Shown here one piece after another: positions 17,252 through 43,361 of a stretch of 64,000 bases of DNA (positions are counted from its first letter, which is position 1; the number at the start of each line of letters is the position of its first letter). The notes under the pieces were generated by a model that was not told the DNA's origin, did no database searches, and saw only the letters and a program-made list of their open reading frames with translations. Source of the stretch: Isoetes taiwanensis. Taxonomy: Eukaryota > Streptophyta > Lycopodiopsida > Isoetales > Isoetaceae. The translations under genes were made by a program, and so were the position numbers. Location of the stretch: the NCBI GenBank assembly GCA_021234155.1, contig JAJEKV010000022.1, forward strand, positions 8,029,961 to 8,093,960, given 5' to 3'.

Positions 17252-17420
17252 CATATGGCGGGAACCCGGCCGCTCGGGTTATTTACTTGTTATTTTCACT
17301 CGTTTGTTTCGGATTTTTTTGCGCCCGTGGGTCTTCATAAGGTAAGATCTCTGCTTTAATCTTTGTGTTAGAGTTAAACACCTCCAAATGCTAATAGATT
17401 AGAAAAGTATGTTAAAAACT

Positions 17421-17615: not shown

Positions 17616-17771
17616 TCAATCAAATGCTTTTTAAATATCATAAACGTTGTATGAATCTGAATCTTAAGAATAAACATTTGATAAAATCATGAAAAAAACA
17701 TGGATATTTATAATTATTATATTATTACATGGTTTTTTATTAATATTTTTATTGTTTACTAGAAAAACAAC

Positions 17772-19103: not shown

Positions 19104-19398
19104 TGATGTACTCAAATTACTCATATAATTTTTGTCGGAATGCACCATTTTCTTCTTCTTCTTTCTTCTTCTTCTTCTTCTCTTGGAATGAGATTGCACA
19201 TATTGAAGATAAATGTGTATTATATCTTCAATATATGCTTTGATTATGACATAAAATTTTTATATTTCGTTCGTTATTAAATGCTTAAAATTTAACAAAC
19301 ACGGGCTCTCAATGTATGTATCAATCAATATATATTTCGTTTAATCGGACGCGAGGGGGTAGGCAAGTGGATATAAGACCACATCCAAGCGTCTTGAA

Positions 19399-22300: not shown

Positions 22301-22650
22301 GTTGGAATGGATTGGTACTATAAAGACTATCATGGAGGTTGATGTCCGTGAGTGCATTCAAAACAATGTTGTTTGATGCCTAATGGTTTGATCTTGTGTG
22401 TATGCGGTGCTCATGCCACGATACGCAAAGATCCGAAAGTGGCCTGTATTCACTAGATTCAACTTCGTCGGTATGATCGTGGTCAAGACACACTTCGTGA
22501 GGGTTGAGCAATGTGAACAAGTATGTTTACTTGGATGCAATAAAATTTATATATGTCATTAACAAAGGAACTAATGTAATAGAGGTTTTGTAGGTCACCT
22601 TCGTTCCAGATCCTTTGCAAGATCGGTGGTGGTTCAGTAGTTCCATGTAA
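19399..22650 (+). pseudogene. TNP2-type CACTA transposase with C-terminal DUF4216-like part
   Basis: The N-terminal part is acidic (DDEDEREYDDEDDD), followed by LYPGASISRLTTSLLIL and LQAKFKWSNASVTALL. After a short intron come LPQGNTMPKSRTEIKNIL, GLGYHKIHACPNDCMVYY and CPKCGASRYN, all diagnostic of TNP2. Further pieces are CHLCGFEQLN (20.6 kb), SFFLLPYWTELKIHHLLDPM (20.9 kb), LKSHDWHKMLRFVMPIVL (21.2 kb) and CMLEKEFPTSF (21.45 kb). The region 22,140–22,650 resembles DUF4216 (DPNPIEAMLEWIGTIKTIME). Reading needs many one- or two-base frame corrections, for example at 20,137–20,560, so as assembled it is non-functional. Family is certain. Confidence 0.88.
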
Positions 22651-22654
22651 GGCT

Positions 22655-23170
22655 CGCCTCCCCCATATTTGAAGGTGAAGAAGAGATGGCGGTCGAATAG
22701 GGAGGTTGGGGGTTGGGGGGGGCAGACTATTGTCATGATAGAAGACTACCATCGATTGAACCTTCATTACTTTATTATGATTATTATATTTTCTTCCCAC
22801 ATATGAATAAGAAAATACTTTGGCATCGCGAATTTTGTGTATACTACAAACCATATTAGGCAACATTAGTATTGCAACTTGAAGTTATCATAGACATTTA
22901 TGCCAAGTTAATTGGCATCCTAGTATAGACCTATGGCTTGCAAAGCGCCCGATCGTGGCAGTTCTACATACTGATTGAGTACACGCTTTATGTTTAATTA
23001 ATCATAAAATGTGAAGATTCCCTTCAAAATGCAAGATTCATATACAAAAATCATATATGTATTCCCTTCAAAATACAAAATTCATATAAAAAACCCATAC
23101 ACAATTCAAATACACAAAACAAAGTGGATGCCAGTGCACATCTAGTGGTATATATCAGCATCCATTGCAG
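22655..23170. other. AT-rich spacer in the CACTA element
   Basis: No supported gene. It contains a short direct repeat ('attcccttcaaaat' at about 23,020 and 23,060). Confidence 0.4.
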
Positions 23171-23176
23171 ATCCAC

Positions 23177-23786
23177 TCATCGCAGGCTTCGAAGGTGCTC
23201 GGCGGTGATTTCCTCCACCCCACGAGAACAAGCCTCCCGAAGCATGGAATCCAAGCCCTCCGGCGTGGTGTCTGTTTCCCCAAGGAATTCATGTACGAGC
23301 ACTTCCCGCATGCCCTGGTTGGTCTGGTGCAACTTTTGAAAGTAGGGCTTCAGCAAATGTTTCCCTTCCCAAAGGCCCCTATCCTCTAGCATACGGGCCA
23401 AGCACAACGAGTTCACCATGCATTTCTTGGGCACTTTCGAGCCCCAGATTGAGGGAAGGTTCCGGCCTCCCGGTAATGCGAGCGAGGTCTTTCTTGCCCC
23501 CTATCATGCAGCTTTGTCATGGCTTGCTTGAACTCCGGCCTTTCTTGGGTTAGGTTCGTCTCTAGCCACTTTTCGGTGGAACCGAGGCGGGTGCTCCAAA
23601 GAAGCGCTGCACGGCCTGCAGTGCGGCATCAAGCGGGCATGCATCAGGAGAAGCGGCCATGGCAGATGTAGGTGAGGAGCTCCGACGAAGGAGGAGGAGG
23701 AGGAAGCTGGAGGGCGCAGGAGCAGAAGGGCGGAGGGGCGGAGAAGCTGGAGGACTAATAGGGCAATATATATGGCATCTCAGCAT
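23177..23786 (-). CDS. CACTA minus-strand gene, unknown function
   Basis: On the minus strand the frame starts near 23,660 (MAASPDACPLDAALQAVQRF) and, after a frame change, continues as KKCMVNSLCLARMLEDRG, LLKPYFQKLHQTNQGMREVL and EACSRGVEEITAEHLRSLR to a stop at 23,177. It is GC-rich relative to its surroundings and looks like a helical protein. I do not recognise it. Its 5' end faces the ACGTCGTT array at 23.8 kb, across from the plus-strand gene at 24.0 kb. Confidence 0.45.
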
Positions 23787-23807
23787 ACGAAAACAAAAAA
23801 AAATTCG

Positions 23808-23901
23808 TACGACGTCGTTATAGCCGTTAACGTCGTTATAGACGTCGTTGAACGACCTTTAAACGTCGTTGAACGACGTTTATACGTCTTAAAACGACGT
23901 C
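23808..23901. repeat. Internal ACGTCGTT array 3 between divergent genes
   Basis: Five to six copies of 'gacgtcgtt' or 'aacgtcgtt' and inverted forms ('gaacgacgttta', 'aaaacgacgtc'). The array lies between the starts of a minus-strand and a plus-strand gene, as a bidirectional promoter would. Confidence 0.8.
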
Positions 23902-24032
23902 TCTGTTCTTTAAAAGTCATCGGCCGGCTTTCATTTTTCCCATTTCTTTTATGATTTGAGTATTGCGAACGATCCTCGGATCCTAGTTTTTCATTGCAGT
24001 TATTGTGAGTTTTTTTCTTTATTGCTTTTGGG

Positions 24033-24573
24033 ATACATGGCCATGGAAGGTATGCTTCGACGCTTGAACCAGATTCAGGAGGAGATGAGGATTCAAGAGC
24101 AGAGAGATATGGAACCTGTCTTCACAAGTAAGGCTACACTCTGTAGTTTATACACTTTATTGTATTTTATCTATTTTCTAATCTATAGCTTGGTGTAGGA
24201 GCCGTCGAGGGCATGAGAAGGAAGGGAATCCTCCGTGAACCCCCTCCTCCACTCGAAGATGAGGACTATGAAACAACGATCCATCGGATGAAAGTGTTAA
24301 AGAAGTATGTGATTGGTGAGAAGGCATCACCAAATTGCTAGGAACCGGTGAGCTGCCTAGCATGATGAGGGTGCTTCTTGAAAAGATGGTCGGGGTTTGG
24401 AAGCACCACGGGGAAAAACAAAGATTAACATGATACTAGCGTCGACATGTGCATGGCTGATGCCAGACATACTTGACATGGAGCTATGGTTCAAAGGGGA
24501 TGGACAAGTGGAGGACTTCACGATAGAAACTATAAGCCAAGCTCAGGAGGAGTATGCTGAATTGTTCAAGTGA
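24033..24573 (+). CDS. CACTA gene with short coiled coil, unknown function
   Basis: The first exon reads MAMEGMLRRLNQIQEEMR and ends at a donor (ACAA|GTAAGG, 24,128). The second starts after 'ttggtgtag' (24,199) with AVEGMRRKGILREPPPP and an acidic/helical stretch. After a frame change near 24,330 and another near 24,415, a last part reads LASTCAWLMPDILDMELWF then TIETISQAQEEYAELFK to a TGA at about 24,571. I see no known domain. It follows array 3 with the same spacing logic as the other transposon genes. Confidence 0.5.
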
Positions 24574-24984
24574 TCTTTTGTTCAATAAACCTATGTTTTG
24601 TACATTGTTATATTTTCTCTTGGGTACAATCTAGCATTGATACATATGCATGAACATGATCTCGAAGGATTCTTGAAGATATTTTGCATTCTTACGTTGG
24701 ATATCGCCTTCTTGATTCGATTTGCCATTTCGAACCCCGAGGTTTTTCTGCGACATTTAGACTTGGACTGGTAGAACCAAATTTTCTCGAGATTATTTGT
24801 GGTTTGGACTCTCCAGAGCTCTTACAAATGGGACACTTCCATGTTCTAAATCTTTCAAATGCACATTCTTAGAAGTTTGTGATGGACAGTCAGCTTGGAT
24901 TTTTCTCCAACCCGGATTGATAGAAGCAGCCACTAAATTTATGTTTCTTTGTGGCTTGAAGTCAACTGCATCTTCCAAATCTTC

Positions 24985-27900
24985 CAAATCAGCTCGGTTG
25001 CCTCGCAACGGGCTGCCCCGACGGTTCTAATGCTAACCCTTTGACCTAGACCTTCTCCAAAAATTCCGAAAATTGGGCCGTGTGCTGGAGATGAATTAGG
25101 ATCCAAATGGCAAAAATCAGAATTTATTTTCGTGCAATGCATTAATTATGAATTTAATCGTGTGTTGCCACTGCAAAAGCGCCCCCCGACTTCTAATTGC
25201 CACATCGGGAGGAGGACAGGTCCAAACTCCGTTCCGTCAGTTCCCCTTGCTATGCGTTCACCGGCCCTTAGCTTCACCACGCGTTCAATCGCACCTTGAG
25301 ACTAGGACTCGGCCCCAAAGCGTAAACCCTTCTAGAGCCCGGCAACTCCACGGGGGTTTACGTTTGAGGCCCCTCTCATTGTCGGTCGGCCGGGACCTAG
25401 CGACGTGTCTTGAAGTGGAGTTGGGGTGTTGACACCAGAGCGCGGACCCTAAAATCCCTCCGGAGGCTGCTTTCCCCAAATTTCCTCTCCCTAAGGCCCT
25501 GGGGAAGAACGGGCAACCTCCCCTCTCCGGAACCACGATTTGGCTCTGCCAATGGACTCAGAACGTTGACATTGCTCTGGAAACCAAGTTCCGTGGCCAA
25601 AAGACCAGGATTCGGCCCCCAAAACGTAAACCCTTCTAGAGCCTGGCAACCCACAGGGTTTACGTTTCGGAGGCCCTCTCCTTGTCGATTCGGTAGGACT
25701 TTGGCGCCATGTCTTGAAGTGGAGTTGGGGTGTTGACGCCAGAGCGGACACTAAAATCCCTCCTAAAGTCGCTGTCCCCGAATTTCCTCTCCCCAAGGCC
25801 CCGGGGAAGGGCGGGCAACCTCCCCTCACCTGAACCGCGATTTGGCTCTCGCCAATGGACTCGAATGCCGACATTGCCCCCTGGGGATCAAGTTCCGTGG
25901 CGAAGACCGGCCCCAAAACGTAAACCCTTCTAGAGCACGGCAACCCACGGGGTTTACGTTTGGAGGCCCCTCTCCTTGTCGGTCGGCCGGGACTTTGGCG
26001 CCATGTCTTGAAGTGGAGTTGGGGTGTTGGCGCCCGAGGCGCGGACACTAAAATCCCTCCTAAGCTGCTTGCCCCGAATTTCCTCTCCCCAAGCCCCAGG
26101 GGAAGGGCGGGCAACCTCCCTCACCGGAACCGCGATTTGGCTCGCCAATGGACTCGAATGCCGACATTGCCACAGGGATCAAGTTCGCGGCGAAGACCAG
26201 GACTTCGGCCCCAAAAACGTAAAACCCTTCTAGAGCCCCGCAACCCACAGGGTTTTACGTTTGAGGCCCTCACCTTGTCGATTCGCGGGACCTTGCGCCG
26301 CGTGTCTTGAAGTGGGGTTGGGGTGTTGGCCTTGAGGCCGGACCCTAAAATCCCTCCCAGGTCGCTTGCCCCAAATTTCCTCCCCAAGGCCCCTCGGGAC
26401 GGACGGGCGACCTCCGGCTCTCAAGAATGATCGACGACTCTGCCAATGGACTCGAAATGTCGACATTGCCCTGGGGACCAAGTTCGTGGGGCGGAAGACC
26501 ACCCGAACTCCAAGAAGCGCCAAAGTAGCTCACTTCCATCACACTTTCGTAGTCAATTGGCCTAGGATGTGCATGCGGGATCTTGGCGTGGAGGGGGCGT
26601 GAGTGTTTCCTTCTTTTCGCAAAACCGACCGTGTAACTTGCTCCCTAGGGTAATTTCGCCATTCGGACGATTTGGCGGGGTCTATTTGCCATTCCGAGCA
26701 TCCCGGTGCGTCCCAACGACAAAAGCAAGGCGGTTTCTACAAGGCCGACATCGGGGCGCCCAGCGGTTTGACAAGTTCTCCCCACCGATCCGAATCTTTT
26801 GGACCTTCCCCAAGAGGGGCCCTGAACGGAGGATCCAACGGTCCGGATAGGGGAACCGGGCTCCGGAGGGTGGTCGTAGCGTCCCCGGGGGCGCCGCCAG
26901 AAGGGCTGCCTCCGGGAACTTTTTTGATCCCGCCTCACGGGTCCTGACTCTCCCCTCTTGTGAGGGATCCCCGCAAGGTCCCGGCCTCGTTTGACTTGGG
27001 AAGGGTGCCACTTCGGTTGCCACGCAACGGGCTGCCCGACCGCTCTCTAACCCTTTGACCTAGACCTTCTCCGAAAATTCCGAAAATTGGGCCGTGTCTG
27101 GCCGATGAATTAGGGATCCCACCGGCAAAAACCGAATTTATTTTCGGTGCAATGCATTAATTGCGAATTTACGAATGTCTTGCCACTTTGCAAAAGCCCC
27201 CGACTTCTACTTGCCACATCGGGAGGAGGAAAGGCCCAAACTCCGCTCCGTCGGTTCCCCTGTGCCGATTCTCGGTGCCGCTTCTCGGCCGGTCCCAAGT
27301 GCAACAGACCCGGGACTTCGGCCCCAAAGCGTAAACCCTTCTAGAGCACGGCAACCCGCAGGTTTACGTTTGAGCCCTCTCCTTGTCGGTCAGTAGGGAC
27401 CTTGCGCCGGTGTCTTGAAGTGGGGTTGGGGTGTTGACGGGAAGCGGACCCTAAAATCCCCTCGGAGGTCGCTTGCCCCAAATTTCCTCTCCCCAAGGCC
27501 ACAGGGGGCCGGGGCGAGGCGACCTCAGCTCTCAGAATCGCGATCTGACTCGCCAATGGACTCGAGCGTCGACATTGCCCTGGGGACCAAGTTAGTGGCG
27601 AGAAGACCACCAAACTCCAAGAAGCGCCAAAGTAGCTCACTTCCATCACACTCGTAGTCAATTGGCCTAGGATGTGCATGCGGGGATCTTTTGTCGGGAG
27701 GGCGTGAGTGTTTCCTTCTTTCAAAAAACCGACCGTGTAACTTGCTCCCTAGGGTAATTTCATCATTCCTGACGATTTGGCGGGGTCTATTTGCCATTCC
27801 GAGCATCCCCCGTGCGAACGACAAAAGCAGTCACGCGGTTTCTACAAGGCCGACATCGGGGCGCCCAGCGGTTTGACAAGTTCTCCTGACCGATCTGGAA

Positions 27901-30900
27901 TCTTTTGGACCTTCCCCTAAGAGGGGCCCCACTGAATCGGAGGATCCAACGGCCGGATAGGGGAACCGGGCCGGGAGGGTGGTCATTAGCGTCGGCCCGG
28001 GAGCGCGCCGAAGGGTCGCCTCGGGAACTTTTTTGATCCCGCCTCACGGGGTCCTGGACTCTCCCCTCTTGTGAGGGATCCCCGCAAGGTCCCCGGCCTC
28101 GTTTGACTTGGGGAAGGGGTGCGGCTGGGGTTGCCGCAACGGCTGCCCACGGATTCTAATGCTAACCCTTTGACCTAGACCTTCTCCCTAAAATTCCGAA
28201 AATTGGGCCGTGTGCTGGGAGATGAATTAGGGATCCCTACCGCAAAAACCGAATTTATTTTTAGTGCAATGCATTAATTACCGAATTTCTGAATGTCTTG
28301 CCCGCTGAAAAGCCCCCGACTTCTACTTGCCACATCGGGAGGAGGAGAAAGGCCCAAACTCCGCTCGGCCGCCTTCCCTTGTTCCCAGTATTCTCCGACT
28401 GGGCGCTTCTCGCCAGTCCCAAGTGCAACGGACGGGACTTCGGCCCCCAAAACGTAAACCCTTCTAGAGCACGGCAACCCACGGGGTTTCACGTTTGGAG
28501 GCCCTCTCCTTGTCCATTCGGCCGACCTTCTTGTGATGTCTTGAAGTGGGGTTGGGGTGTTGGCCCAGAGCTTGACCCTAAAATCCCCTCCTGAGGTCGC
28601 TTGCCCCAAATTTCCTCTCCCCCAAGGCCCCGGGGGCCGGACGGGCGACCTCGCTCTCGGAATCGCGGACGACTCGCCAATGGACTCGAACGTCGACATT
28701 GCCACAGGGACCAAGTTCCGTGGCCGAAGACCACCACCCGAACTCCAAGAAGCGCCAAAGTAGCTCACTTCCATCACACTCGTAGTCAATTGGCCTAGGA
28801 TGTGCATGCGGGATCTTATCGTGGGCGTGAGTGTTTCCTTCTTTCATAAAACCGGCCGTGTAACTTGCTCCCCTAGGGTAATTTAAGCCATTCGGACGAT
28901 TTGGCGGTCTATTTTTACCATTCCGGAGCATCCCTGTGTGCGAACGACAAAACAAAGGCGGTTTCTCAAGGTTTTACATCGGGGCGCCCAGCGGTTTGAC
29001 AAGTTCTCCCTGACCCGATCTGGAATCTTTGGACCTTCCCGAAGAGGGGCCCCCCAGCGGAGGATCCAACGGTCGGATAGGGGAACCGGCTCGGGAGGGT
29101 GGTCATTAAGCGTCAGCCCCGGGAGCGCCGGGGAAGGGCTGCCTCGGGAACTTTTTTGGATCCCGCCTCCTGGGGTCCGGACTCTCCCCTCTTGTGAGGG
29201 ATCCCTGCAAGGTCCTGGCCTCGTTTGACTTGGGGAAGGGTGCGGCTCGGTTGCCACCCGCAACGGGCTGCCCCGACCGCTCTAATGCTAACCCTTTGAC
29301 CTAGACCTTCTCCTAAAATTCGAAAATTGGGCCGTGTCTTTGGAGATGAATTAGGGATCCGCCGGCAAAAAACGGAATTTATTTTAGTGCAATGCATTAA
29401 TTGCGAATTTACTGAATGTCTTGCCACTGCAAAGCCCCCCTTCTTCTACTTGCCACATCGGGAGGAGGAAAGGCCCAAACTCCGCTCCGTCAGTTCCCCT
29501 TGCTCCGTATTCTCGGCTGCTGCTTCTCGGCCAGGTCCCAAGTGCAACAGACCAGGACTCGGCCCCCAAAACGTAAACCCTTCTAGAGCCTGGCAACCCA
29601 CAGGGTTTACGTTTGGAAGGCCCTCTCCTTGTCGGTCGGTAGGGACCTTGCGCCGTGTCTTGAAGTGGGGTTGGGGTGTTGACGCCGAAAGGCGGACCCT
29701 AAAATCCCTCCGAGGTCGCTTGCCCCAAATTTCCTCTCCCCAAGGCCCCAGGGGGGGCCGGAGGCGACCTCAAGCTCTCCTGAATCGCGATCCGACTCTG
29801 CCAATGGACTCGAGCGTCGACATTGCCCAGGGACCAAGTTCCGTGGGCCAGAAGACCACCCGAACTCCAAGAAGCGCCAAAGTAGCTCACTTCCATCACA
29901 CTCGTAGTCAATTGGCCTAGGATGTGCATGCGGGATACTGTCGTGGAGGGCGTGAGTGTTTCCTTCTTTCGCAAAACCGACCGTGTAACTTGCTCCCTAG
30001 GGTAATTTCGCCATTCCGGACGATTTGGCGGGGTCTATTTGCCATTCCGAGCATCCCGGTGCGAACGACAAAACAAAGGCGTTTCTACAAGGCCGACATC
30101 AGGACGCCCCGCGGTTTGACAAGTTCTCCCGGACCGATCTGGAATCTTTTGGACCTTCCCGAAGAGGGGCCCCTGAACGGAGGATCCAACGGTCGGATAG
30201 GGGAACCGGGCTCCGGGAGGGTGGTCATTAGCGTCGCGACCGGGGGGCGCCGCCAGAAGGGTCGCCTCGGGGAACTTTTTGGATCCCGCCTCCTGGGATC
30301 CGGACTCTCCCCTCTTGTGAGGGATCCCTGCAAGGTCCTGGCCTCGTTTGACTTGGGGAAGGGTGCGAGCTCGGTTGCCCTGCAACGGGCTGCCCCGACC
30401 GTTCTAATGCTAACCCTTTGACCTAGACCTTCTCCGAAAATTCCGAAAATTGGGCCGTGTGCTGGAGATGAATTAGGGATCCCGCTGCCAAAAAACCGGA
30501 ATTTATTTTCGTGCAATGCATTAATTGCGAATTTACGAATGTCTTGCCACTGCAAAAGCGCCCCCCGACTTCTACTTGCCACATCGGGAGGAGGAAAGGC
30601 CCAAACTCCGCTCCGTCAGTTCCCTTGCTCCGTATTCTCGGCTGCTGCTTCTCGGCCAGGTCCCAAGTGCAACAGACCAGGACTCGGCCCCCAAAACGTA
30701 AACCCTTCTAGAGCCTGGCAACCCACAGGGTTTACGTTTCGGAGGCCCTCTCCTTGTCAGGTCGGCCGGACCTTGCGCGAGGTGTCTTGAAGTGGGGTTG
30801 GGGTGTTGTTGACGCCAGCGCGGACCCTAAAATCCCCTCAGGCTGCTTGCCCCAAATTTCCTCTCCCAAGGCCCCAGGGGCCGACGGGCGACCTCCGCTC

Positions 30901-33900
30901 TCGGAATCGCGATCCGACTCTGCCAATGGACTCGAACGCCGACATTGCCCCTCGGGGACCAAGTTCCGTGGCGAAGACCACCCGAACTCCAAGAAGCCCA
31001 AAGTAGCTCACTTCCATCACACTCGTAGTCAATTGGCCTAGGATGTGCATGCGGGATACTTTTTTGGCGTGGAGGGCGTGAGTGTTTCCTTCTTTCGCAA
31101 AACCGACCGTGTAACTTGCTCCCTAGGGTAATTTCTCCATTCCGGACGATTTGGCAGGGTCGATTTGCCATTCCGAAGCCTCCCCGGTGCTCGAACGACA
31201 AAACAGTGCGGTTTCTACAAGGCCGACATCAGGACGCCCCGCGGTTTGACAAGTTCTCCCGGACCGATCTGGAATCTTTTGGACCTTCCCAAGAGGGGCC
31301 CCCGAATCGGAGGATCCAACGGTGGGATAGGGGAACCGGGCCCGGAGGGTGGTCATTAGCGTGCAGCCCGGGGCGCCGCCGAAGGGGTCCTCGGGAACTT
31401 TTTGGATCCCGCCTCCCGGGTCCTGGACTCTCCCCTCTTGTGAGGGATCCCTGCAAGGTCCTGGCCTCGTTTGACTTGGGGAAGGGTGCCAGCTCGGTTG
31501 CCCTGCAACGGGCTGCCCCGACCGTTCTAATGCTAACCCTTTGACCTAGACCTTCTCCGAAAATTCCGAAAATTGGGCCGTGTGCTAGAGATGAATTAGG
31601 GATCCCGGCAAAAAAAAAAAAACGAATTTATTTTCGTGCAATGCATTAATTGCGAATTTACTGAATGTCTTGCCATCGCAAAAGCCCCAGAACTTCTACT
31701 TGCCACATCCGGGAGGAGGAAAGGCCCAAACTCCGCCCGTCAGTTCCCCTTGCTCCGTATTCTCGAGCTGCTGCTTCTCGCCAGGTCCCAAATGCAACCT
31801 TGAACCCGGGGACTCGGCCCCCAAAGCGTAAACCCTTCTAGAGCCCTGCAACCCACCGGGGTTTACGTTTGGAGTCTTCTCCTGTCCCGGTCAGCCGGAC
31901 CTTGCGGAATGTCTTGAAGTGGGGTTGGGGTGTTGACGCCCGAGCGGACCCTAAATCCCTCCTGAGGCTGCTTTTGCCCCAAATTTCCTCTCCCCAAGGC
32001 CCCGGGGGCCGGACGAGGCGACCTCCGCTCTCCTGGTCGCGATCGACTCGCCAATGGACTCGAACGTCGACATTGCCCTGGGACCAAGTTAAAGTGGCCG
32101 AGAGACCACCAACTCCAAGAAGCCAAAGTAGCTCACTTCCATCACACTCGTGAGTCAATTGGCCTAGGATGTGCATGCGGGATACTTGTCGTGGAGGCGT
32201 GAGTGTTTCCTTCTTTTCATAAAACCGGCCAGGTGTAACTTGCTCCCTAGGGTAATTTAGCCATTCCGGACGATTTGGCGGGGTCTATTTGCCATTCGGA
32301 GCATCCCGGTGCTGACGACAAAACAGTCTGCGGTTTCTACAAAGGCCGACATCGGGGCCTTGCCGTTTGACAAGTTCTCCGGACCCGTCGGAATCTTTTG
32401 GACCTTCCCCAAGGGGGGCCCCCGAGCGGAGGATCCAGCGGTCGGATAGGGGAACCAGGGCTCGGGAGGGTGGTCATTAGCGTGCGGCCGGGAGGCCCGC
32501 GAGGGAAGGGCTGCCTCGGGAACTTTTGGATCCCGCCTCACGGTCCGGACTCTCCCCCTCTTGTGAGGGATCCCCGCAAGGTCCCGGCCTCGTTTGACTT
32601 GGGGAAGGGTGCGGCTGGTTGCCACAGCGGGCTGCCCGGCCGCTTCTAATGCTAACCCTTTGACCTAGACCTTCTCCTCTAAAATTCGAAAATTGGGCCG
32701 TGTCTTTGGAGATGAATTAGGGATCCCCAAAAAAGCAAAATTTATTTTATTGCAATGCATTAATTGCGAATTCTGAATGTCTTGCCAACTAAAAGCGCCC
32801 CGACTTCTACTTGCCACATCGGGAGGGAGGAAAGGCCCAAACTCATCCCGTCGGTTCCCCTTGCTCCGTATTCTTTCGGTGCCGCTTCTCGGCGAGTCCC
32901 AAATTTAGCAGACGGGACTCGGCCCCAAAAACGTAAACCCTTCTAGAGCACGGCAACCCACGGGGTTTACGTTTGGAGGCCCTCTCCTTGTCGAGTTCGG
33001 TAGGGACCTTGGCCAGGTGTCTTGAAGTGGGGTTGGGGTGTTGGCCTTGAGGCCTTGACCCTAAAATCCCCTCCCGGGGTCGCTTGCCCCCAAATTTCCC
33101 TCCCCAAGGCCCCACGAGGACGGGACGGGCGACCTCGGCTCTCCCAATCGCGATCGACTCTGCCAATGGACTCGGAACGTCGACATTGCCACAGGGACCA
33201 AGTTCCGTGGCGGAAGACCACCCGAACTCCAAGAAGCGCCAAAGTAGCTCACTTCCATCACACTCGTAGTCAATTGGCCTAGGATGTGCATGCGATCTTG
33301 TCGTGGAGGGCGTGAGTGTTTCCTTCTTTAAAAACCGACCGTGTAACTTGCTCCCTAGGGTAATTTAACCATTCGGGGCGATTTGGCGGGTCTATTTGCC
33401 ATGGAGCATCCCCGGTGCGAACGACAAAACAGTCTTGGTTTCTACAAGGCCGACATCGGGGGCGCCCAGCGGTTTGACAAGTTCTCCGGACCGATCACGG
33501 AATCTTTGGACCTTCAGAAGAGGGCCTCGAGCGGAGGATCCAACGGTCGGATAGGGGAGGCAGGGCTCCGGGAGGGTGGTCGATAGCGTCAGACCCTCGG
33601 GAGCGGCCGCCGGAAGGGCCAGCCTCGGGAACTTTTTGGATCCCGCCTCACGGGGTCCTGGACTCTCCCCTCTTGTGAGGGATCCCCGCAAAGGTCCCAG
33701 CCTCGTTTGACTTGGGAAGGGTGCCATTTCGGTTGCCACAGCGGCCACCCCGGCCGCAGATTCTAATCTGTGCTTTGACCTAGACCTTCTCCTCGGTTCC
33801 AAAAATTGGGCCGTGTCTTTGGAGATGAATTAGGGATCCGGCAAAAAGCGAATTTATTTTAGTGCAATGCATTAATTGCGAATTTACGAATGTCTTGCCA

Positions 33901-35340
33901 CTTTGCAAAAGCCCCCCGACTTCTACTTGCCACATCCGGAGGAGGAAAGGCCCAAACTCCAGCTCCGTCGATTCCCCTTGCTTTCGTATTCTCGGCTTCT
34001 TTGCTTCGGCCAGGAGTCCCAAGTGCAGACCCGGGACTCGGCCCCAAAACGTAAACCCTTCTAGAGCACGGCAACCCCACGGGGTTTACGTTTGAGGCCC
34101 TCTCCTTGTCGGTCCGGCGGGACCTTGCGGCAGGTGTCTTGAAGTGGGGTTGGGGTGTTGGCCTTGAGCCTTGGACCCTAAAATCCCTCAGGAGGCTGCT
34201 TGCCCCAAATTTCCTCTCCCCAAGGCCACGGGACGGACAGGCGACCTCCGCTCTCCGGAATCGCGTTTGACTCTGCCAATGGACTCGGGCGTCGACATTG
34301 CCACAGGGACCAAGTTCGTGGCGAGAAGACCACCGAACTCAAGAAGCGCCAAAGTAGCTCACTTCCATCACACTGCGTTAGTCAATTGGCCTAGGATGTG
34401 CATGCGGGATCTTGTCGTGGAGGGCGTGAGTGTTTCCTTCTTTCATAAAAACCGGCCAGGTGTAACTTGCTCCCTAGGGTAATTTCGCCATTCAGGACGA
34501 TTTGGCGGGGTCTATTTGCCATTCCGAGCATCCCGGTGCGAGCGACAAAGCAGTCGGGTTTCTACAAGGCCGACCATCAGGGCGCCCCACAGTTTGACAA
34601 GTTCTCCCGGACCGATCTGGAATCTTTTGGACCTTCGAAAGAGGGGCCCCGAACGGAGGATCCAAATCGGCCGGATAGGGGGAACCTCCGGGAGGGTGGT
34701 CATTAGCGTCGCAGCCAGGGGGGGCCGCCCGGAAGGGGGTGCCTCGAACTTTTGGATCCGCCTCACGGGGTCCGGACTCTCCCCTCTTGTGAGGGATCCC
34801 CGCAAGGTCCCGGCCTCGTTTGACTTGGGGAAGGGTGCCAGCTCGGTTGCCACCTCAGCGGGCTGCCCCGACCGCTTCTAATGCTAACCCTTTGACCTAG
34901 ACCTTCTCGAAAATTCGAAAAATTGGGCCGTGTCTTTGAGATGAATTAGGGATCCTGGCAAAACCGAATTTATTTTCGTGCAATGCATTAATTGCGAATT
35001 CTGAATGTCTTGCCATTTGCAAAAGCGCCCCGACTTCTACTTGCCACATCGGGAGGAGGAAAGGCCCAAACTCCGCTCCGTCGGTTCCCCTTGCTCCGTA
35101 TTCTCGGCTGCTGCTTCTCGGCCGTCCCAAGTGCAATGGACCGGGACTCGGCCCCAAAACGTAAACCCTTTCTAGAGCACGGCAACCCACGGGGTTTACG
35201 TTTGAGGCCCTCTCCTTGTCGATCGGTAGGGACCTTGCGGCGTGTCTTGAAGTGGGGTTGGGGTGTTGGCCTTGAGCCCCGGACCCTAAAATCCCCTCCC
35301 GGGTCTTGCCCCAAATTTCCCTCTCCCCAGGCCCCGGGGA
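24985..35340. repeat. 10.35-kb satellite array (~300-bp then ~1.12-kb units)
   Basis: The landmark 'cgtaaacccttctagagc' recurs at about 25,322, 25,627, 25,920, 26,220, then 27,335, 28,456, 29,573, 30,698, 31,827, 32,932, 34,050 and 35,160. So three ~300-bp units precede about eight ~1.12-kb units. Each unit is GC-rich and has fixed phrases ('tgtcttgaagtggggttggg', 'tttgacctagaccttctcc', 'cttgtgagggatcc'). Copies differ mainly by small indels, many beside CG, CAG/CTG or CCGG. Long open frames on both strands change between copies, so I regard the array as non-coding. Confidence 0.93.
29569..29614. repeat. 12-bp inverted repeat at the satellite core
   Basis: AAACGTAAACCC (29,569–29,580) and GGGTTTACGTTT (29,603–29,614) are a perfect inverted repeat around a 22-nt loop starting TTCTAGAG. 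The same hairpin, with loop variants, sits at each landmark in the array. It is the best-conserved structure of the unit. Confidence 0.8.
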
Positions 35341-35344
35341 CTTC

Positions 35345-35734
35345 GAAATTCAAGGTGAGACGTCGTTGAACCACTGAAGGCGTGTCCAAAACCCTTAGCG
35401 AGTAATCTATGAAGAGGTCGCAACCATATATGAAGTTGTATGTGATCATGCACGAGAGAATATGGCAAATCAAAGAAGCTCTTCTTGCAGCTTTGCATGG
35501 ATATGGCTGGGCATGCCTTGTGTAGATTGTATCGCGAGAAGAGCAACACAGTGAGCCATATGTTTGCCTTTACTCTGATCATGACCAAGTGATTGGCAAG
35601 CTTGATTTAGTATGAAAGTATGCAAGTGAAGCTCAATGGTGCACAAGTCGGTTTATTAAAGTGGATAGATAAACAAGGATGGAGAGAAATCTAAGTGGAT
35701 AGATAAAGAAGGATAGATAAAATACATAAGTAAT
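35345..35734 (+). other. Gene remnant after the satellite
   Basis: Plus-strand frames read MHERIWQIKEALLAALHGYG then, shifted, LYREKSNTVSHMFAFTLIMT, which look like protein sequence broken by one-base changes. I do not recognise them. A single 'gacgtcgttgaa' motif lies at 35,358–35,370. A 'gtggatagataaa' phrase is duplicated at 35,660–35,710. Confidence 0.3.
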
Positions 35735-35960
35735 CATTGCCAACTAGTGCTCCATTATTATCTGCTCCCGATGTGTGAGTTTCATTGGAAGCAATACCCC
35801 AAGAATCATTGGCATCCGAGTTGCCTCCTCCCCATCTGTCATTTCCATTTGATGCAATTCCCCAACTATCATTCTCACCGATTCCTTGTTATCTCAGTAT
35901 CATTGTTACCAATAGCATCATGTTGATTTCCTCCCCATCGATATTCACGAGTTTCAATGA
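35735..35960 (-). pseudogene. WG-repeat (Argonaute-hook-like) coding fragment
   Basis: On the minus strand the frame reads ETREYRWGGNQHDAIG, then after a one-base frame change ENDSWGIASNGNDRWGGGNS and ANDSWGIASN. That is four Trp-Gly dipeptides in about 70 residues, in a Gly/Asn/Asp/Ser-rich, disordered context. Such WG/GW repeats are the Argonaute-binding platforms of the RNA-directed DNA methylation factors NRPE1 and SPT5L/KTF1. No start or flanking domain is seen, so it is a fragment. It lies ~150 bp from an Argonaute fragment on the opposite strand. A chance low-complexity match remains possible. Confidence 0.5.
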
Positions 35961-36104
35961 TGTTCAATGCTTTAAAATCTCATTCAAAAAGAGCCACCGA
36001 GTTTATTCTATGCATTCTACCTCAAAAGACCGATCTCTATCTTTGTGTAATGGTTTGATTCCTTTTATATGTAGTTTCTGAAGGAAGATGCAATGCATAC
36101 TTAT

Positions 36105-36455
36105 GCGAGAGAGATGTTTTGCGGGCGTTTAACAAACCGTTTACATCGGGCGTTGGAGTTGTTAATCGGTGTATAGTTCCTCCCGTAATATAAATGATCG
36201 ATTACTTGACGAATGTGGCTTTGAAAATTAATGCCAAGGTAACTCACTTGGTACCCCATAATGGCTCCCTGTTCATTGAATCAAGACTTACTTTCAAACC
36301 GTAGTGTGGAGGATATAATACGATGTTATCGATGGAATTTAAATCGTGGTCTTCCAAAGGTCTCGAGGAGCCAACTATAATCTTTGGAATGGATGTGTCA
36401 CATGGAGCCCCATTCTCGTCAAATTCACCATCAATTGCAATTGTAAGGATTGAAC
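36105..36455 (+). pseudogene. AGO4-clade Argonaute PIWI-domain fragment
   Basis: The frame reads RCIVPP, then (after one-base corrections) LTNVALKINAK at about 36,209–36,237. A small intron with GT–AG ends (36,239–36,303) follows, then CGGYNTMLSMEF and EEPTIIFGMDVSHGAP, ending NSPSIAIV before a donor-like GTAAGG. This matches the Argonaute PIWI segment around the first catalytic Asp (GMDVSH). The wording GMDVSHG, rather than GADVTHP, is typical of AGO4/6/9-clade proteins that act in RNA-directed DNA methylation. It keeps an intron, so it came from genomic DNA. It has no start, no PAZ and no rest of the PIWI catalytic set, so it is a captured fragment. Confidence 0.85.
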
Positions 36456-36529
36456 CGTGTGTGCACTTGACTTAATCATTATTATTATAATTATAATAAT
36501 AACTTATAATTATAACTTAATAAAAAAAA

Positions 36530-36625
36530 GACGCGTCGTTTAACACAAAGGCGTCGTTATAGGCGTCGTTTAACGACTATTGCGGGCGTCGTTAAGCGAC
36601 CTCGCGACGTCGTTCAACGGCGTCT
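36530..36625. repeat. Internal ACGTCGTT array 4
   Basis: Copies 'gcgtcgtttaac', 'ggcgtcgttat', 'gtcgtttaacgac', 'gcgtcgttaagcgac' and 'gacgtcgttcaacgg'. They stand directly upstream of a GC-rich leader (about 36,640–36,765) that ends at a donor-like CAAAG|GTATTT. Confidence 0.85.
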
Positions 36626-37017
36626 GTAACTTTTTATCGAAAAGCGAGCGGCTTTTCCGCCGCCTAGTTTTTTGGTTCTAAAAGCGCTGGAGGAGCGTTT
36701 TTTAGTGGCGATTTTGGCGCGGATCATCCTTATGGTCCTTTCCAAGCTTCAAGCAAGCATCCAAAGGTATTTCAATGGATCAATCAACTCTATTTTTGAA
36801 TTAGGCTTGTTGTTTGATAGATTTAGGGCTTCTTCTTTTTTTTCTTATTTGTTTTCAATCCATCCCATTTCTATCCTCCTCTTCTTTCCATCCTTGTTTT
36901 CTTCAATCCATTTAAGCCTCTTATTAGTATGAATCGAATCCTCCTCCTTCTTCTTCCAATGATCTTCCAATCATTGGTTTCTTCCTTCTAATCTTCCGTT
37001 CTTCCAATCTTCTATTC

Positions 37018-37253
37018 ATTTTCTTCTTCTTCTTCTTCACCACTTTCTCATTCTATTCAATTCTTCTTCTTCTTCTTCTTCTTCTTCTTCTTCTTCTTCT
37101 TCTTCTTCTTCTTCTTCTTCTTCTTCTTCTTCTTCTTCTTCTTCTTCTTCTTCTTCTTCTTCTTCTTCTTCTTCTTCTTCTTCTTCTTCTTCTTCTTCTT
37201 CTTCTTCTTCTTCTTCTTCTTCTTCTTCTTCTTCTTCTTCTTCTTCTTCTTCT

Positions 37254-37284
<31 letters not shown>

Positions 37285-37410
37285 TCTTCTTCTTCCTCTT
37301 CTATTTTTTTTCCATGGAAGAAGGACGTCGTTGAAAGACGAGGCCCATTCTTCCTCTATTTTTTATTACAAGAAGGGGACGTCGTTGAAAGACGAGGCCC
37401 CTTCTTTTTA
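37018..37410. repeat. (CTT)n microsatellite and duplicated ACGTCGTT motif
   Basis: Nearly 240 bp of pure CTT repeat, inside the leader intron, is followed by two copies (about 37,316 and 37,370) of a segment with 'ggacgtcgttgaaagacgag' and 'gcccattctt' or 'gccccttctt'. Poly(T) tracts follow to 37,600. Confidence 0.9.
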
Positions 37411-37734
37411 TGTTCTTCTTTTTTTTTTTTTTTTTTCATTTTTTACATGTCAATATATAGTTCTTTTTAATTAACAATGTAAATAGTTTTAATGTCAATG
37501 ATCTTTTCAATGTGAATCGTCTTTTTTGTTTTTTTTTTTTTTTTTTTTTCTTTATTTATGTAAGTTTTCTAATTATTGAATGCCTTTATTTTTTTTTTTG
37601 CATGTACACTAATAACAAAATCGTTAAGCTCTTGGAAATCGATTTTCGCTGCTCGAAGACATTCTAGGTAAGAATTTGAGTTTGAGTAGGAGAATAAAAT
37701 TTTAATGTTTTATTTAGGTTAAAAAAAACTTGGG

Positions 37735-38115
37735 GAGACTTGGACAAGGGCATGGTCGGCTCCTTGTGAGTGGAGAAGACTAGGTGTTCGGGTCCAAGCT
37801 CACCGCTTACTCTTGTAATTTTATTGATTAATGTATTTAGTTTAGAAAAATTGGGGAGACTTGGACAAGGGGCATGGTCGGCTCATTTGAGTGGAGAAGA
37901 CTAGGTGTTCCGGGTCCAAGCTCACCGGTTACTCTTGAAATTTTATTGATTAATGTATTTAGTTTAGAAAAATTTGGGGAGACTTGGACAAGGGCATGGT
38001 CGGCTCCGCCTTGAGTGGAGAAGACTAGGTGTTCCGGGTCCAAGCTCACCGCCTACTCTTGTTTATTTTTTTATTAATATATCAATAAATAGAAATCTTT
38101 ACGGGATTGGACAAG
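37735..38115 (+). repeat. Three tandem hairpin repeats in the second leader intron
   Basis: Copies at 37,735–37,801, 37,856–37,923 and 37,979–38,047, in a ~122-bp tandem period, with a decayed fourth at about 38,101. Each folds with outer stem GAG.CTTGGAC / GTCCAAGCTC, inner TGGTC / GACTA, and a top CTC(C) / GGAG or GAG stem. The inner 'tggtcgg…ggagaagacta' core is shared with the two copies at 17.4–17.6 kb although the outer stems are unrelated. They end ~320 bp before the next coding exon. Confidence 0.7.
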
Positions 38116-38368
38116 GGCAGGGTTTTTGAAAAAAATTGCATTATTGATTTTCGGGTTTCTAGTTAAGAATGTTGTTTTTTAAAGATGTTAGGGATGTCAA
38201 AGAAACACTGATGTGGAGTGGTTAAGAGCAAGAAAAAATTTAAATAGTTGGTTTTTAAAAAAAAAATTAAAAGGGAAACTAACTCTTAAGAAAGTAGGTA
38301 AAGATTCATAATGAAGGTTTGAAAAAAGTCACAAAGCAAGATTAATGAATCTAAATTGGTTTGTAGGT

Positions 38369-39935
38369 ATGGCCCCGACTGTGAAGACACTAATGATTAG
38401 TGAGATTAGACGCATGGTCATAAATGAGATATGTGCTAACGAAAGTCCCGACCGGGAGATGCAAACTGGTCAACGTGTCGACCATTTTGTCAGACATGTG
38501 AAAAGGAAGTGCCAATTTGAGTTAGCACAAAAATGGCCAGGTCAAGAAGAAATGTTGACTTCTCTCCTTGACACACATGTAAAGCCAATGATTGGAAACC
38601 CCATGGATGAACTGAAGACATGTTTGAAGCATTCAGTGCAGCTTAAAAGTCCCAATGCCGAGGCTCGTGTCAAGGAATGGGTAGCTTCATGGAATTCCTC
38701 AAAGAAGCGACGTTTGGATCACAAGAACATCATTGCGGATCTCAATGCACGTCAGTTGGAGGTAATTAAAAATGCTTTGCATCAGGGGGGAAGCTCTAGT
38801 GGAGCAGGGCCTAGCAAGCCCCACTTTTCTTTGGAGAATCACATGAACACATCAATCTTTGTTGATCCCATGCCCGTAGAGGCCGTGGATGTGATACACC
38901 TTATTGAGGAGAAACCAACACATGCATGCGTATCAAATCAAAATCAACGGAACACAACACTTCCAAGATGATGAGCTATCACAAATGGATGGGTTTTCAA
39001 GGGCAAAGATAGAGGCGTAGACGTATGAGATGGCTCAAAGATACATACGCTTCAAGAGCCCATCCTGCTTTGGCTACATCCATTGGACTTGCATATGAAG
39101 TTGCTAGCTCTAGTGGGGATACCATAGGGCCAATGGTGATTCTACCTTTCATGAATGGAGAGACACTTGCACACTTGTTTGACTATTTACCTAATAACTT
39201 GTCACGTTTTAGAAGATGGTCAAATGCAATTGCTAGAGCGCCAAGAAGAACTGACAAACACATAGGCTGAACTTAGGAGCAAAATCACGAGTTGTATATC
39301 GATATGTTCGAGAGATAGCTCTTGCCCCAGCGAGAAGGTGTCGTTGAGATCCACAAAGGCCACTTCACTCACACAAAGCTTAATTGCAAGAGAGTCAAAT
39401 TACATTTTGATGATGAGTACCAAAATGTGTGGGTGGCCATTGGTGATTGGGACAATGCAATTCATTTTTACGCCAAAGAGCGTCGTCCCTTGTTGAAGTG
39501 TCGGTACTTACTTTCGGATGGACAAGCAAAATATCCATGGTTAGAGGAAACTGTGTTTGAGAAATCAAAGGATGATGATCGTGTATGGGGACCACGAAAA
39601 TTCATGATGTCTATGCATTGGGATATATTTATGAGATGCTTCTGGATTTCGTGCAAGCTATGCGACGAATGGAGTGGTTTAATAATAACAACAATGCCCA
39701 ATGGATTAATCCAACCCATATGTACCAACGACGTCTTGACAAGTTGGAGGAGCAAAAAACAAGAATGATGTGCCTACGTGAAGACGTATTCTCATCACGA
39801 CCCAAAGCTTCTGAAGTTGTTGAAGCCTTACAAAGTGTTGGAATATCTTCTACCATGGTTGTGAGACAAAGACGACACATGAAGTGCATGGATGCCTTGG
39901 AGATGTCAAAATTGTTGTTGTCACAACTCAAATAA
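38369..39935 (+). CDS. CACTA gene after array 4, unknown DNA-binding/coiled-coil protein
   Basis: The exon begins after acceptor 'ttggtttgtag' (38,366). ATG 38,369 opens MAPTVKTLMISEIRRMVINE to TGA 38,969. It has VDHFVRHVKRKCQFELAQKW and a basic, Gln-rich end. Further frames (39,025–39,270 and 39,322–39,935, shifted) give HFTHTKLNCKRVKLHFDDEY and a C-terminal coiled coil (RRLDKLEEQKTRMMC then EALQSVGISSTMVV). The position next to TNP2 in a CACTA element suggests a TnpA-like accessory protein, but I see no diagnostic domain. Breaks between the frames may be introns or indels. Confidence 0.5.
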
Positions 39936-40145
39936 TGAATACAATATTGTATATCTTGCCATGTTTAAGAGTATTAAATTTTTTTAATTGTCTAATAACC
40001 AAATATATAAAGACACTTTTAATTATTCAAATCCCAATGTTTTGTAATGAACTTCCCATGTTGCTAACATTTGTTGCTTTCCTACTATGTTATTCATCGC
40101 ACTCCATATAAATAACTTGCAAGTTTTTGCACATGTCCAGCAACC

Positions 40146-41860
40146 ATGGGATTTGGCACGATGGCATATCTATTGTTCACAACTTTACTTCTCGCGTGGC
40201 TTGGTAGCCTTATTGACAGCCCTAAACCTGCAAAGGCCTTTAAGAGGCGGGTTGGTCGCTCGGGTTTAGCTCGCCACCACACCGCCCCACCTCCACCATT
40301 GTGTGGATTTGGTATGGATTTTTTCTAGGATAAAATGTAAGTTAACCATTTATTTTAACGTTCTAATGTTTTTAAATGTAGCGTGTAAATGCGGTTCGTC
40401 CTTCTTTTCCTATGCATAATGTTAGGTGCCGTGGTTATGGGCGGATCTTCTTCTCATCACCACCGCCGAAGAGACGGAAAAAGGACCTCGCATCCAAAGG
40501 AAAGACGAAGAGCGTGGAACTCCGAGATATCAACGAGGCGATAACCACGAAGATAGGTGGAATGCCTTGCAATTCGGGATGTCGCCTGCAGAAATGGAGA
40601 TTGCGCCCAGTCAGTTGAACAAAGTAGGCGGAGGTCTGGCCCCCATGACCCTCCACGTCATAGCTCATACACTCCTTCAGAATTCAATCTTGGGGCGTTC
40701 CCGGCCACGAGGGAGAATGAACCCCCACGGGAGAGCGCCGACCGCCGCCCACGCCGAGTGGACGCAATTCCTCTTCAAGCTCATAAAGATCGTGCACCAC
40801 CGCACCACCTCCACGAAGGCATCTCTTTCAATATGAGTGAGTTCATCTTGAATTATGCCCTTTTTGTTCACTAACACATATTCATATGTTAGTCGTATGT
40901 TGAGTGTAGTAGCAAGAGTTGCCGCGCCCACAAAGACTTTGAGATGGCGACAATTTTTGAAAGATGGCTAATAATGTCACAAATAGCGTTTGCCATAACG
41001 TCCACAAGGGTGACTGGAACTCGGGAGCCTATGATGAGGAAAAAGAGAGGATCAAGGAGATTTTAGAAGCAGAATATCCCGAGCTCAAGTCAGGAGAGAT
41101 CTCATGGAGGGAGCTTTGTTCAAAGCGGGGTAAACATGTTAAATCCACCGGTGTATTAGGCTCTTTTTCGTTCTTCATTATAACCTCATTGTACTCATAT
41201 TTTATTTATATTTTGCGAGGTAATCGGAAGAAGCGGTGAAAGATCTTGCCAAAGCTACGAGGAGTCCCGATAGAGAGGAAGTGGCACGACCTATCCGGGT
41301 TGACTAATGAGGCATTTCAAGTACATCATCTCTCCCATGAGTCGTATAATTAGATGATGCCATGTGGACTAAGTCCTTGTATTGCATTGTAGTGTTTGAA
41401 GGCCAACATATTATCAAAGAAAGGGGAAGCTAGAACAAAGGCAGCGACGGACGCGAGGTAATGCGACGAAGCAAGTGGCGACCATAGTGCCAATAAGACT
41501 GGTCCGGCGGTTATGGCTTTCTGGATAAACTATTTGTAAGTATAAATTTGGTTTATAATGTAGGTTCTCGAGTTGAACACTAACATTAGTTTTGGTGCTC
41601 ATTCTCACTAGGCGTCATTTGCCGGTCGCCCATTTGCTAAAGATGAACGCGAAAAGGGCCTTCAAACAAAGGCGGATCATGCGGCCATCGCAGCGTCACC
41701 ATATGGCGTGAAAGGGGGATGAAGTGTGTATCATTCATTAGATAATTATTTGTGACTACAATGAACTAATTGTTGCGATACAATATAATGCGGGTAAATG
41801 AAGAGCGAAGCCAATGAAGAAGAAGAAGAAGAAGAGCAACAACTAAAGACTTAATATATT
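40146..41860 (+). pseudogene. Third CACTA gene region, possibly plant transposase-24-like
   Basis: Several short plus-strand frames with basic, polar sequence follow each other: AKAFKRRVGRSGLARHH (40.2 kb), SSPPPKRRKKDLASKGKTKS (40.45 kb), EEKERIKEILEAEYPELKSG (41.03 kb), KANILSKKGEARTKAATDAR (41.4 kb) and ASFAGRPFAKDEREKGLQTK (41.6 kb). Order and style resemble the second ORF of plant CACTA elements (Transposase_24-type, with an SE.NK..R-like motif), but no single clean frame exists. The gene ends in a Glu/Lys-rich stretch near 41,850. Confidence 0.35.
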
Positions 41861-42292
41861 TTGTAATGTGCAAATTACATTGTGAAATATATTAATTGAA
41901 TTCAATTTAAATTTTTTATGCTTTGTTCTTATTATTTGTGATTTTTTTTTTATGTTAATTTTATGCTCGATTCTATTTTTTTTTTTATTCTTAGATTTAT
42001 TAAACATTTAATTACATATTAAACAATAATGCTTATCTACCATTAATATAATTTAATCAATATTTGTTTCTATTTTTCGAATTTTTAAATTTTTAAATAT
42101 TTATTCTCGATTTATTTTGTTCATATTTAATATTTATTAATACTATTAATATTATTGATAATATTAATATTAATAAATATTACTAAATATTTATTTATAT
42201 TAAATATTTGTTAATTTTGCATATGAATATTAACTGTCCGTTAAATCATATTGAATAATATTAAATAAATATTTTTTTTTTATCAAAATTCT
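41861..42292. other. AT-rich non-coding stretch in the CACTA element
   Basis: Very AT-rich with 'aatattaat' and 'ttatttta' phrases; nothing recognisable. Confidence 0.5.
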
Positions 42293-42296
42293 TTAA

Positions 42297-42792
42297 TCGT
42301 CGTTGAACGCGGCGTTGTTATGCGGTGGCCACGCCGTCAGCGGCGTCGTTGAACGGCGTCGTCTAAATAGCGCCAGCCGCCAAACGACCAGCGGCGGGCG
42401 GTGTCGACCACGCCCGAACGCGTCGTTGAACGGCGTTTCACCGCCGACCCGTCGCGGCCTTCTGTGCAACGCCATATTTGACCGGACATGATGGCGTGTA
42501 CTTTTCGCCGTTGAGCGGCGTTGCCGAATCATCTGCCACGCCCCGGCCCGTAGTATGGCGCGGTCACTCTGGCAAAGCAGCGATGCCGCGTGGTCGACCC
42601 ATTAATGCAAGCGGCGTTGAACGGCGTCATGTCGCCGCTTAAAGACGCCGCTAGATTGCGCGCCCAGCGTATAGCGACGCATAAACGTCGTATATCGACG
42701 CTCCGACGTCGAAATAGACGTCGTTTATCGACGTTTTGACGTCGATCATCGACGTGCAAACGACGTCTGGACGTCGTAATAGACGTCGTAAC
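42297..42792. repeat. Right subterminal ACGTCGTT/GGCGTTGAACG array
   Basis: Dense repeats: 'gtcgttgaacggcgtcg', 'cgtcgttgaacggcgtt', 'cgttgagcggcgtt', then many 'gacgtcg' palindromes at 42,700–42,790. It mirrors the left array and ends 10 bp before the terminal motif. Confidence 0.85.
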
Positions 42793-42815
42793 AGGGCTTT
42801 GGTTTTGTAGTGGGT

Positions 42816-43361
42816 GTAGAACTTAAGCATCTTAATCACACAAAGATAGATGTATTGCGCCCCAGAGCCAAGGAGCTTCTAGAGTGGTGCATGGAGCACT
42901 TCACGATTGCCATTTGGACAACATTGAGCAGCACTGCAACTAATCTTATTCTAAATCACATGTTTGAAAGAGCTGTTCGAGGAAAATTACAGTTTACATG
43001 GTCTTCAAGTAAGTGCACAAATACGGCATTCAAAGTTGAAAGGAAACCTGTCTTGTTGAAGGAGTTGAGCAAAGTTTATTCTGAAATAAAGGGAGGTTGG
43101 ATGGACAAAAATACATTGCTAGTCGATGATATGGCATACCGTGGTTTTAAGAACAGTCCACATACAATGGTATGCCCTAATACTTATCAACCATCCAGAA
43201 GAGATGGTGACTTCCTATTCGAACATCTAAGACCATGGCTGGAACTACTGTTAGAAGTTGAGAATGTGGAAGTGTATCTTCAAGCCAATCCATTAACTAA
43301 CATTCTGGATAAGGTTTCGAAGAAAGCAATTGATACTCTCAAGAAATACAGATATCGTTGA
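42816..43361 (+). CDS. FCP1/NIF phosphatase domain, second half
   Basis: This open frame continues the domain across the insertion and ends at TGA 43,359–43,361. It shows LRPRAKELLEWCMEHF, the HAD motif II region AIWTTLSS, a motif III Lys in PVLLKELSKVY, and the motif IV acidic pair in LLVDDMAY, followed by NSPHTMVCP and a C-terminal helix. These are the hallmarks of the NIF/FCP1 family. The half has no promoter or start of its own that I can see. Confidence 0.88.
   Translation, partial: VELKHLNHTKIDVLRPRAKELLEWCMEHFTIAIWTTLSSTATNLILNHMFERAVRGKLQFTWSSSKCTNTAFKVERKPVLLKELSKVYSEIKGGWMDKNTLLVDDMAYRGFKNSPHTMVCPNTYQPSRRDGDFLFEHLRPWLELLLEVENVEVYLQANPLTNILDKVSKKAIDTLKKYRYR

Follow-up and report, generated by a model that had tools for sequence, protein, structure and literature searches.

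The question raised by this locus is how a piece of an Argonaute gene came to lie within repetitive DNA of Isoetes taiwanensis, and whether it acts there as a passenger, as a reservoir of siRNA or as a weapon. A sequence-only reading of the window (the whole stretch of 64,000 nucleotides that was analysed) had placed an AGO4-clade PIWI fragment at 36105..36455, inside a transposon. The analysis of the window revealed the following features of the transposon and its surroundings.

15804..16022, plus strand: left part of an FCP1/NIF-phosphatase gene, open frame once joined to 42816..43361
16023..16025: left GGT target-site duplication, directly before CACTACAAGGG
16026..42812, plus strand: complete CACTA (En/Spm) element of 26,787 bp with ends CACTACAAGGG...TTTTGTAGTG and a subterminal motif
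18744..19103, plus strand: open reading frame with a SET-domain match, 5′ of the transposase remains (Pfam SET 2e-6, above cut-off)
20538..20750, plus strand: piece of tnp2-type transposase (Pfam Transposase_21 1.3e-7, above cut-off)
21564..21821, plus strand: DUF4218 piece of the transposase region (single reading frame 5.2e-6, just under cut-off)
24800..35340, no strand assigned: GC-rich array within the element, units of about 1.1 kb, limits approximate
42813..42815: right GGT target-site duplication, directly after TTTTGTAGTG
42816..43361, plus strand: right part of the FCP1/NIF-phosphatase gene (Pfam NIF 2.1e-8 alone)

When the element was removed and its flanks were joined, a single open frame for an NLI-interacting-factor (FCP1-like) phosphatase was obtained (Pfam NIF 9.9e-11). 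The inverted CACTA...TAGTG termini were present in this element and in five further ones. A search of the whole window for the subterminal motif, with up to three mismatches permitted, gave 41 matches against 0.06 expected, and all 41 were located within 16026-42812. The frame of the tnp2-type transposase survives in broken pieces, and joining of neighbouring transposase pieces for the Pfam search improved the DUF4218 match to 1.2e-9. With its terminal ends, 3-bp duplication, subterminal repeats and tnp2-type transposase, the element belongs to the CACTA (En/Spm) superfamily, and it is inserted into an exon of the FCP1/NIF-phosphatase gene. The ends, the GGT duplication and the restored host frame thus bear out the claim that the fragment lies inside a transposon.

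A sequence search of PDB with the SET frame (18744-19103) returned nothing significant; if it does encode a transposon-borne SET protein, this would be of interest next to the two RdDM gene pieces described below. No RNA families were found at gathering score anywhere in the window. To the left of the CACTA element lies a different DNA transposon, with a DDE_1 transposase frame at 2586-3566 on the plus strand (Pfam 7e-17), and a unit of approximately 620-670 bp is present in tandem copies at 59009-62552.

The captured DNA lies towards the right end of the element and consists of pieces of two host genes.

35733..35948, minus strand: stretch captured from the WG-repeat tail of host SPT6L, donor C1018:14902071-14902285 (91.7% identity to L063 1272-1486)
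35949..36471, plus strand: captured piece of a host AGO4-clade gene, donor C974:3179162-3178634 in gene direction (89.9% identity over 534 columns, introns included)
36075..36238, plus strand: Argonaute exon ending ...YLTNVALKINAK, corresponding to host exon 6167-6331; the upstream frame is broken in the window copy
36239..36304, plus strand: retained GT-AG intron of 66 bp
36305..36442, plus strand: Argonaute exon with GMDVSHG, followed directly by the donor site GTAAGG

The Argonaute exons encode DYLTNVALKINAK and, beyond the GT-AG intron, CGGYNTMLSMEF...EEPTIIFGMDVSHGAP...SIAIV. The peptides named in the sequence-only reading are therefore present, and the joined 60-aa peptide matched Pfam Piwi with an E-value of 1.8e-10, over the gathering score; the second exon by itself scored 0.0041, which is under it. 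The best PDB match was Protein argonaute 10 (2.3e-7) among 33 PDB sequences, none of which carries the name of a plant AGO4; the one labelled argonaute-4 is presumably the human protein. GMDVSHG is found in both the window piece and its donor, whereas two further host Argonautes have GSDVTHP and GADVTHP. We take clade II of the legume Argonautes to be the AGO4/6/9 clade. According to a passage of a study of legumes, T[L/M]ILGMDVSHG is the wording of clade II and GADVTHP that of clades I and III (PMC5404147), which agrees with the assignment of GMDVSHG to the AGO4 clade. By these matches we identify the window fragment as Argonaute PIWI sequence with AGO4-clade wording. Its homology to the gene on C974 spans introns, so that the proposed copying from genomic DNA holds as well. 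Two details needed correction: a retained GT-AG intron is indeed there, but it measures 66 bp and not 65 bp, and the fragment does cover 36105..36455, but these limits are too narrow, as homology to the donor extends over 35949-36471.

The donor Argonaute gene (C974; L051, L059 and L060) gave matches to ArgoN (2.2e-22) and PAZ (9.5e-9). These were obtained by searching individual exon translations and not a full gene model; two of the three translations matched and the third gave none. When eight host fragments were compared, the C974 gene was the closest one for all 50 loci cut out from the genome (see below) and for the window.

Beside the Argonaute fragment, a WG-rich frame was found on the minus strand. 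The two pieces meet at 35948/35949 and are mutually antisense. Among the 148 matches of the WG peptide there was a sole long open frame, 788 aa without a stop, running from C1018:14902139 onward. It begins with the end of the SPT6 SH2 domain (Pfam SH2_2 2e-24; PDB SPT6 4.9e-16) and continues into WG repeats with seven CCHC matches. As the tandem SH2 domain of SPT6 is followed by WG/GW repeats in one and the same 788-aa frame, the second donor is identified from its domain order as SPT6L with an Argonaute hook. A further paper reportedly deals with the theme of the SPT6L Argonaute hook and RdDM. The seven zinc-knuckle matches of the host tail are interspersed among its WG repeats (L063 479-2845, plus strand). 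An excerpt of PMC10991848 describes SPT6L as an Argonaute-hook protein which colocalises with Pol V and is an ancestral component of RdDM. A search with six reading frames from 35343-35732 gave no Pfam match at cut-off that would point to a third captured gene.

To locate related copies, the genome (1,658,258,908 bases in 1,110 contigs) was searched with both peptides. The Argonaute peptide was found in at least 150 places (195 candidates, best 150 scored), at least 142 after merging, and the WG peptide in at least 148 places (209 candidates, best 150 scored), at least 133 after merging. In at least 110 of the 142 merged Argonaute places, on 72 contigs, a WG piece was present within 1.5 kb. 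The layout was identical in all 110 pairs: the WG piece lies upstream and on the opposite strand. Six of these pairs are longer composites on C1041 and C1076. The remaining 32 Argonaute places, host genes included, have no WG piece. The payload thus occupies about a hundred genomic places. This and the fusion of the Argonaute fragment to an antisense SPT6L piece were the two things missed in the first interpretation.

The 30 best loci of one Argonaute listing and the 20 best of 40 in another were extracted, and 45 of these 50 were distinct; they are top-ranked matches and not a random sample. In 44 of the 45 the copy starts at donor offset 1-5. The one exception (L012) starts at offset 181 and has no WG piece. 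Only two end points were observed, at 1040-1046 in 25 copies and at 532 in 20, the window copy, which has no distal part of the family payload, being among the latter. The end at 532 is read from these alignments as a loss of the distal part common to 20 copies.

We compared 130 payload places (with the rows for host genes and for the C1041 type left out) with the positions of element ends. Among the 40 best ends of each kind, 14 left and 23 right ones had a payload place whose side and orientation were as expected, and none had one in the opposite orientation; the lists comprise the best 40 of 679 left and of 565 right candidates, and ranking by likeness to the window element favours its kin. 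Nine pairs of left and right ends could be formed, six with payload (22.6-32.0 kb) and three without a listed payload place. Because such pairs exist, the payload appears to be unnecessary for mobility. Target duplications were examined in the six payload-bearing elements among the nine pairs, and all six have perfect 3-bp duplications (GGT, TAT, ATG, AAT, TAG and TTA); their 30-bp ends are identical. The window element is therefore a Pack-type element, in which host gene pieces lie between the ends, the two donors are located elsewhere (C974 and C1018) and the payload has moved with the element. The donor loci, the single set of breakpoints, the fixed order and orientation and the 3-bp target duplications together demonstrate capture and spread by CACTA.

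The junction of the two gene pieces was also found outside CACTA elements. At C1041:5762000-5770000 (L064) the AGO4/SPT6L junction is the same, and the pieces of both genes are longer and rearranged; on C1041 this composite occurs three times at a spacing of approximately 16.7 kb. Comparison with the donors after masking gave 16 differences common to the CACTA consensus and L064, 37 private to L064 and 28 private to CACTA. The simplest order of events would be that the composite existed before CACTA took part of it, given that C1041 has a longer version in which the junction is the same; this order rests on one longer locus and the 16 shared sites. Shuffled pieces of the AGO4 and SPT6L genes were also observed in L065-L067, which belong to a group of approximately 13 places with a small PIWI piece.

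Raw identity between the copies and the donor ranged from 85.8 to 95.9%. Decay of the fragment was considered as a sign of age and dropped, as the differences concentrate at CG and CHG sites and at the central base of CWG. Counted as cells (every position in every copy), mismatches to the donors reached 26.8% at CHG, 21.1% at CG and 37.6% at the CWG middle base, against 9.1% at CHH and 5.5% at other A/T positions. In such a count one inherited change is scored many times, hence sites were counted too: 37 of 45 CWG middle sites were variable among the copies (in 5-90% of them) versus 77 of 709 other A/T sites. In 34 of these 37 sites the change was mostly A>G or T>C, and none was fixed. Deamination alters the C or G of CWG and leaves the middle base untouched. 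Transitions made up 63% of the CHG and 74% of the CG mismatches, and true deamination therefore probably contributes there. According to an excerpt of PMC6591954, ONT basecallers make known errors at the 5mC motifs CCAGG and CCTGG. The assembly of Isoetes taiwanensis (1658.30 Mb, 204 scaffolds and 909 contigs) is described in a section of PMC8566536 as made from ONT v9.4.1 reads with racon and pilon.

The mismatch pattern can thus be explained as an indirect footprint of methylation at CG and CHG in repeats beyond the reach of short-read polishing. As this pattern of miscalls fits methylated DNA in a Nanopore assembly, the payload copies are probably cytosine-methylated and silenced by the host, and their apparent decay is probably in part an artefact of the miscalls. 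The ratio of observed to expected CWG was 0.26-0.65 in the element versus 0.75 and 0.81 in its flanks. In the composite it was 0.30 (5 seen, 17 expected); the scarcity of CWG is weak as evidence there, because the control trinucleotide GWC is low as well (9 seen, 18 expected).

Once the CG, CHG and CWG middle sites had been masked, a divergence of 3.4% from the donor was left in the proximal Argonaute part of the window copy. A strict mask covering CG, CHG, homopolymers and the surroundings of indels, with the consensus of the copies as reference, left 0.30% of cells off consensus in the proximal exons (19/6,431), 0.70% in the proximal introns (30/4,291), 0.77% in the WG part (35/4,573) and none of 1,045 in the distal exons. 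The distal introns were 5.9% off consensus, which stems from shared variants and poor alignment, and the two rims, masked from the consensus alone, gave 2.2% (35343-35732) and 3.3% (the one behind the payload). With a loose mask the proximal exons and introns showed 0.68% versus 2.1%. With the strict mask no exon-specific conservation was seen when distinct changes were counted (16 in 6,431 exon cells versus 9 in 4,291 intron cells). Within the WG part, codon positions 1, 2 and 3 were changed in 18, 12 and 5 cells, corresponding to 3, 5 and 3 distinct changes. The identical ends, the target duplications and the low masked divergence speak for a young burst of the family.

Overall, these data are very probably best explained by capture of gene pieces by a CACTA family that spread to about a hundred places and now forms a reservoir of methylated DNA that matches two silencing genes. 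Part of the AGO4-clade gene (approximately 1,046 bp with introns) would have been joined head to head to approximately 215 bp of the SPT6L WG tail, and the family would have taken up this composite of approximately 1.26 kb by copying genomic DNA. Ordinary cut-and-paste transposition would then have carried the payload to its many places, where the host probably methylates the copies and keeps them under silencing. Transcription in the direction of the transposase would yield sense AGO4 and antisense SPT6L RNA. The methylated copies may make or receive siRNAs matching exons of AGO4 and SPT6L, and the net effect on the donor genes would presumably be small or nil. All 45 copies have perfect 21-mer matches to AGO4 exons (172 of 464 possible 21-mers), and 44 of them also to the SPT6L piece (64 of 195); these figures are lower bounds because miscalls break matches. 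Both recognised donors belong to one pathway, RdDM; this is striking, although it was noticed post hoc and could be due to chance.

The coincidence of two effectors of one silencing pathway within one payload may also be taken as a sign of counter-defence, in which siRNA or antisense RNA from the payload would lower AGO4 and SPT6L, weaken RdDM and so have helped the family to spread. The family would then be armed against RdDM at two points, AGO4 and the Argonaute-hook tail of SPT6L, with partial depletion of both, and the host would silence the copies in return. Such a role would fit the near-universal perfect 21-mers and the youth and success of the family, and it has a precedent in the CACTA-borne miR820 acting on OsDRM2 in rice (an excerpt of PMC3459959). 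However, the copies look methylated, distinct changes revealed no exon-specific conservation, family members without a listed payload exist, and the constant relative orientation of the pieces in all 110 pairs leaves no hairpin layout. We consider this explanation unlikely.

Less probable still is that the longer AGO4/SPT6L composites, on C1041 and elsewhere, represent a host locus producing siRNAs for the tuning of RdDM, from which CACTA took a part: composites with the same junction do stand outside CACTA, three of them regularly spaced, and additional repeats hold shuffled pieces of both genes, but the pieces in the composites show rearrangement and duplication and could be part of a different transposon. 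On the minus strand, many copies have an open WG frame of 65-137 aa, which could in principle supply a peptide acting as an Argonaute decoy; this seems very improbable, as changes in the WG part follow no codon-position pattern. The broken upstream frame of the window copy would suit an old host pseudogene beside the transposon, the case named in the sequence-only reading as its own refutation. It was ruled out by the clean target duplication around the element, the restored host frame and the same breakpoints in 45 distinct loci, and we give it practically no weight.

The putative methylated reservoir carried by CACTA has relatives in other plants. A passage of PMC13317346 names Pack-CACTA of Arabidopsis and soybean CACTA with gene fragments as gene-carrying CACTA, with which the Isoetes family shares the CACTA ends, the captured host gene pieces with introns and the spread by transposition. 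It differs from them in that its payload derives from a pair of genes acting in one silencing pathway and is found in about a hundred places; set beside them, the Isoetes elements are 22.6-32 kb long and have transposase remains. The same passage states that captured pieces can be siRNA reservoirs silencing their donors, and that harm to essential donors is selected against. As in the maize reservoirs it describes (Helitrons, Pack-MULEs and Sireviruses), captured donor sequence lies here in putatively silenced transposons and could yield donor-matching siRNA; the maize reservoirs, however, involve other kinds of transposons and 1,629 donors, as against a single CACTA family with two donors from the same pathway here. 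The miR820 element, as described in the excerpt of PMC3459959, resembles the present one in that a CACTA transposon holds sequence matching an RdDM gene, OsDRM2. There it is a microRNA, with repression and coevolution shown, whereas here any repression would have to come from captured exon and intron sequence of the AGO4 and SPT6L genes. A literature search covering titles and the starts of abstracts, with most subscription papers outside its scope, found no report of a CACTA with captured Argonaute sequence and none of CACTA in Isoetes.

Worked cases of transposons coping with host silencing are few, and here one family bears partial copies of two effectors of the very pathway by which transposons are silenced. 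Since the donors, breakpoints and copies are all located, it is directly decidable whether the payload is a passenger, an siRNA reservoir or a weapon. Nanopore miscalls at methylated sites can mimic pseudogene decay, and the present assembly seems to contain false divergence that reflects methylation. Counts of Argonaute and SPT6 genes in the Isoetes taiwanensis assembly may include transposon pieces.
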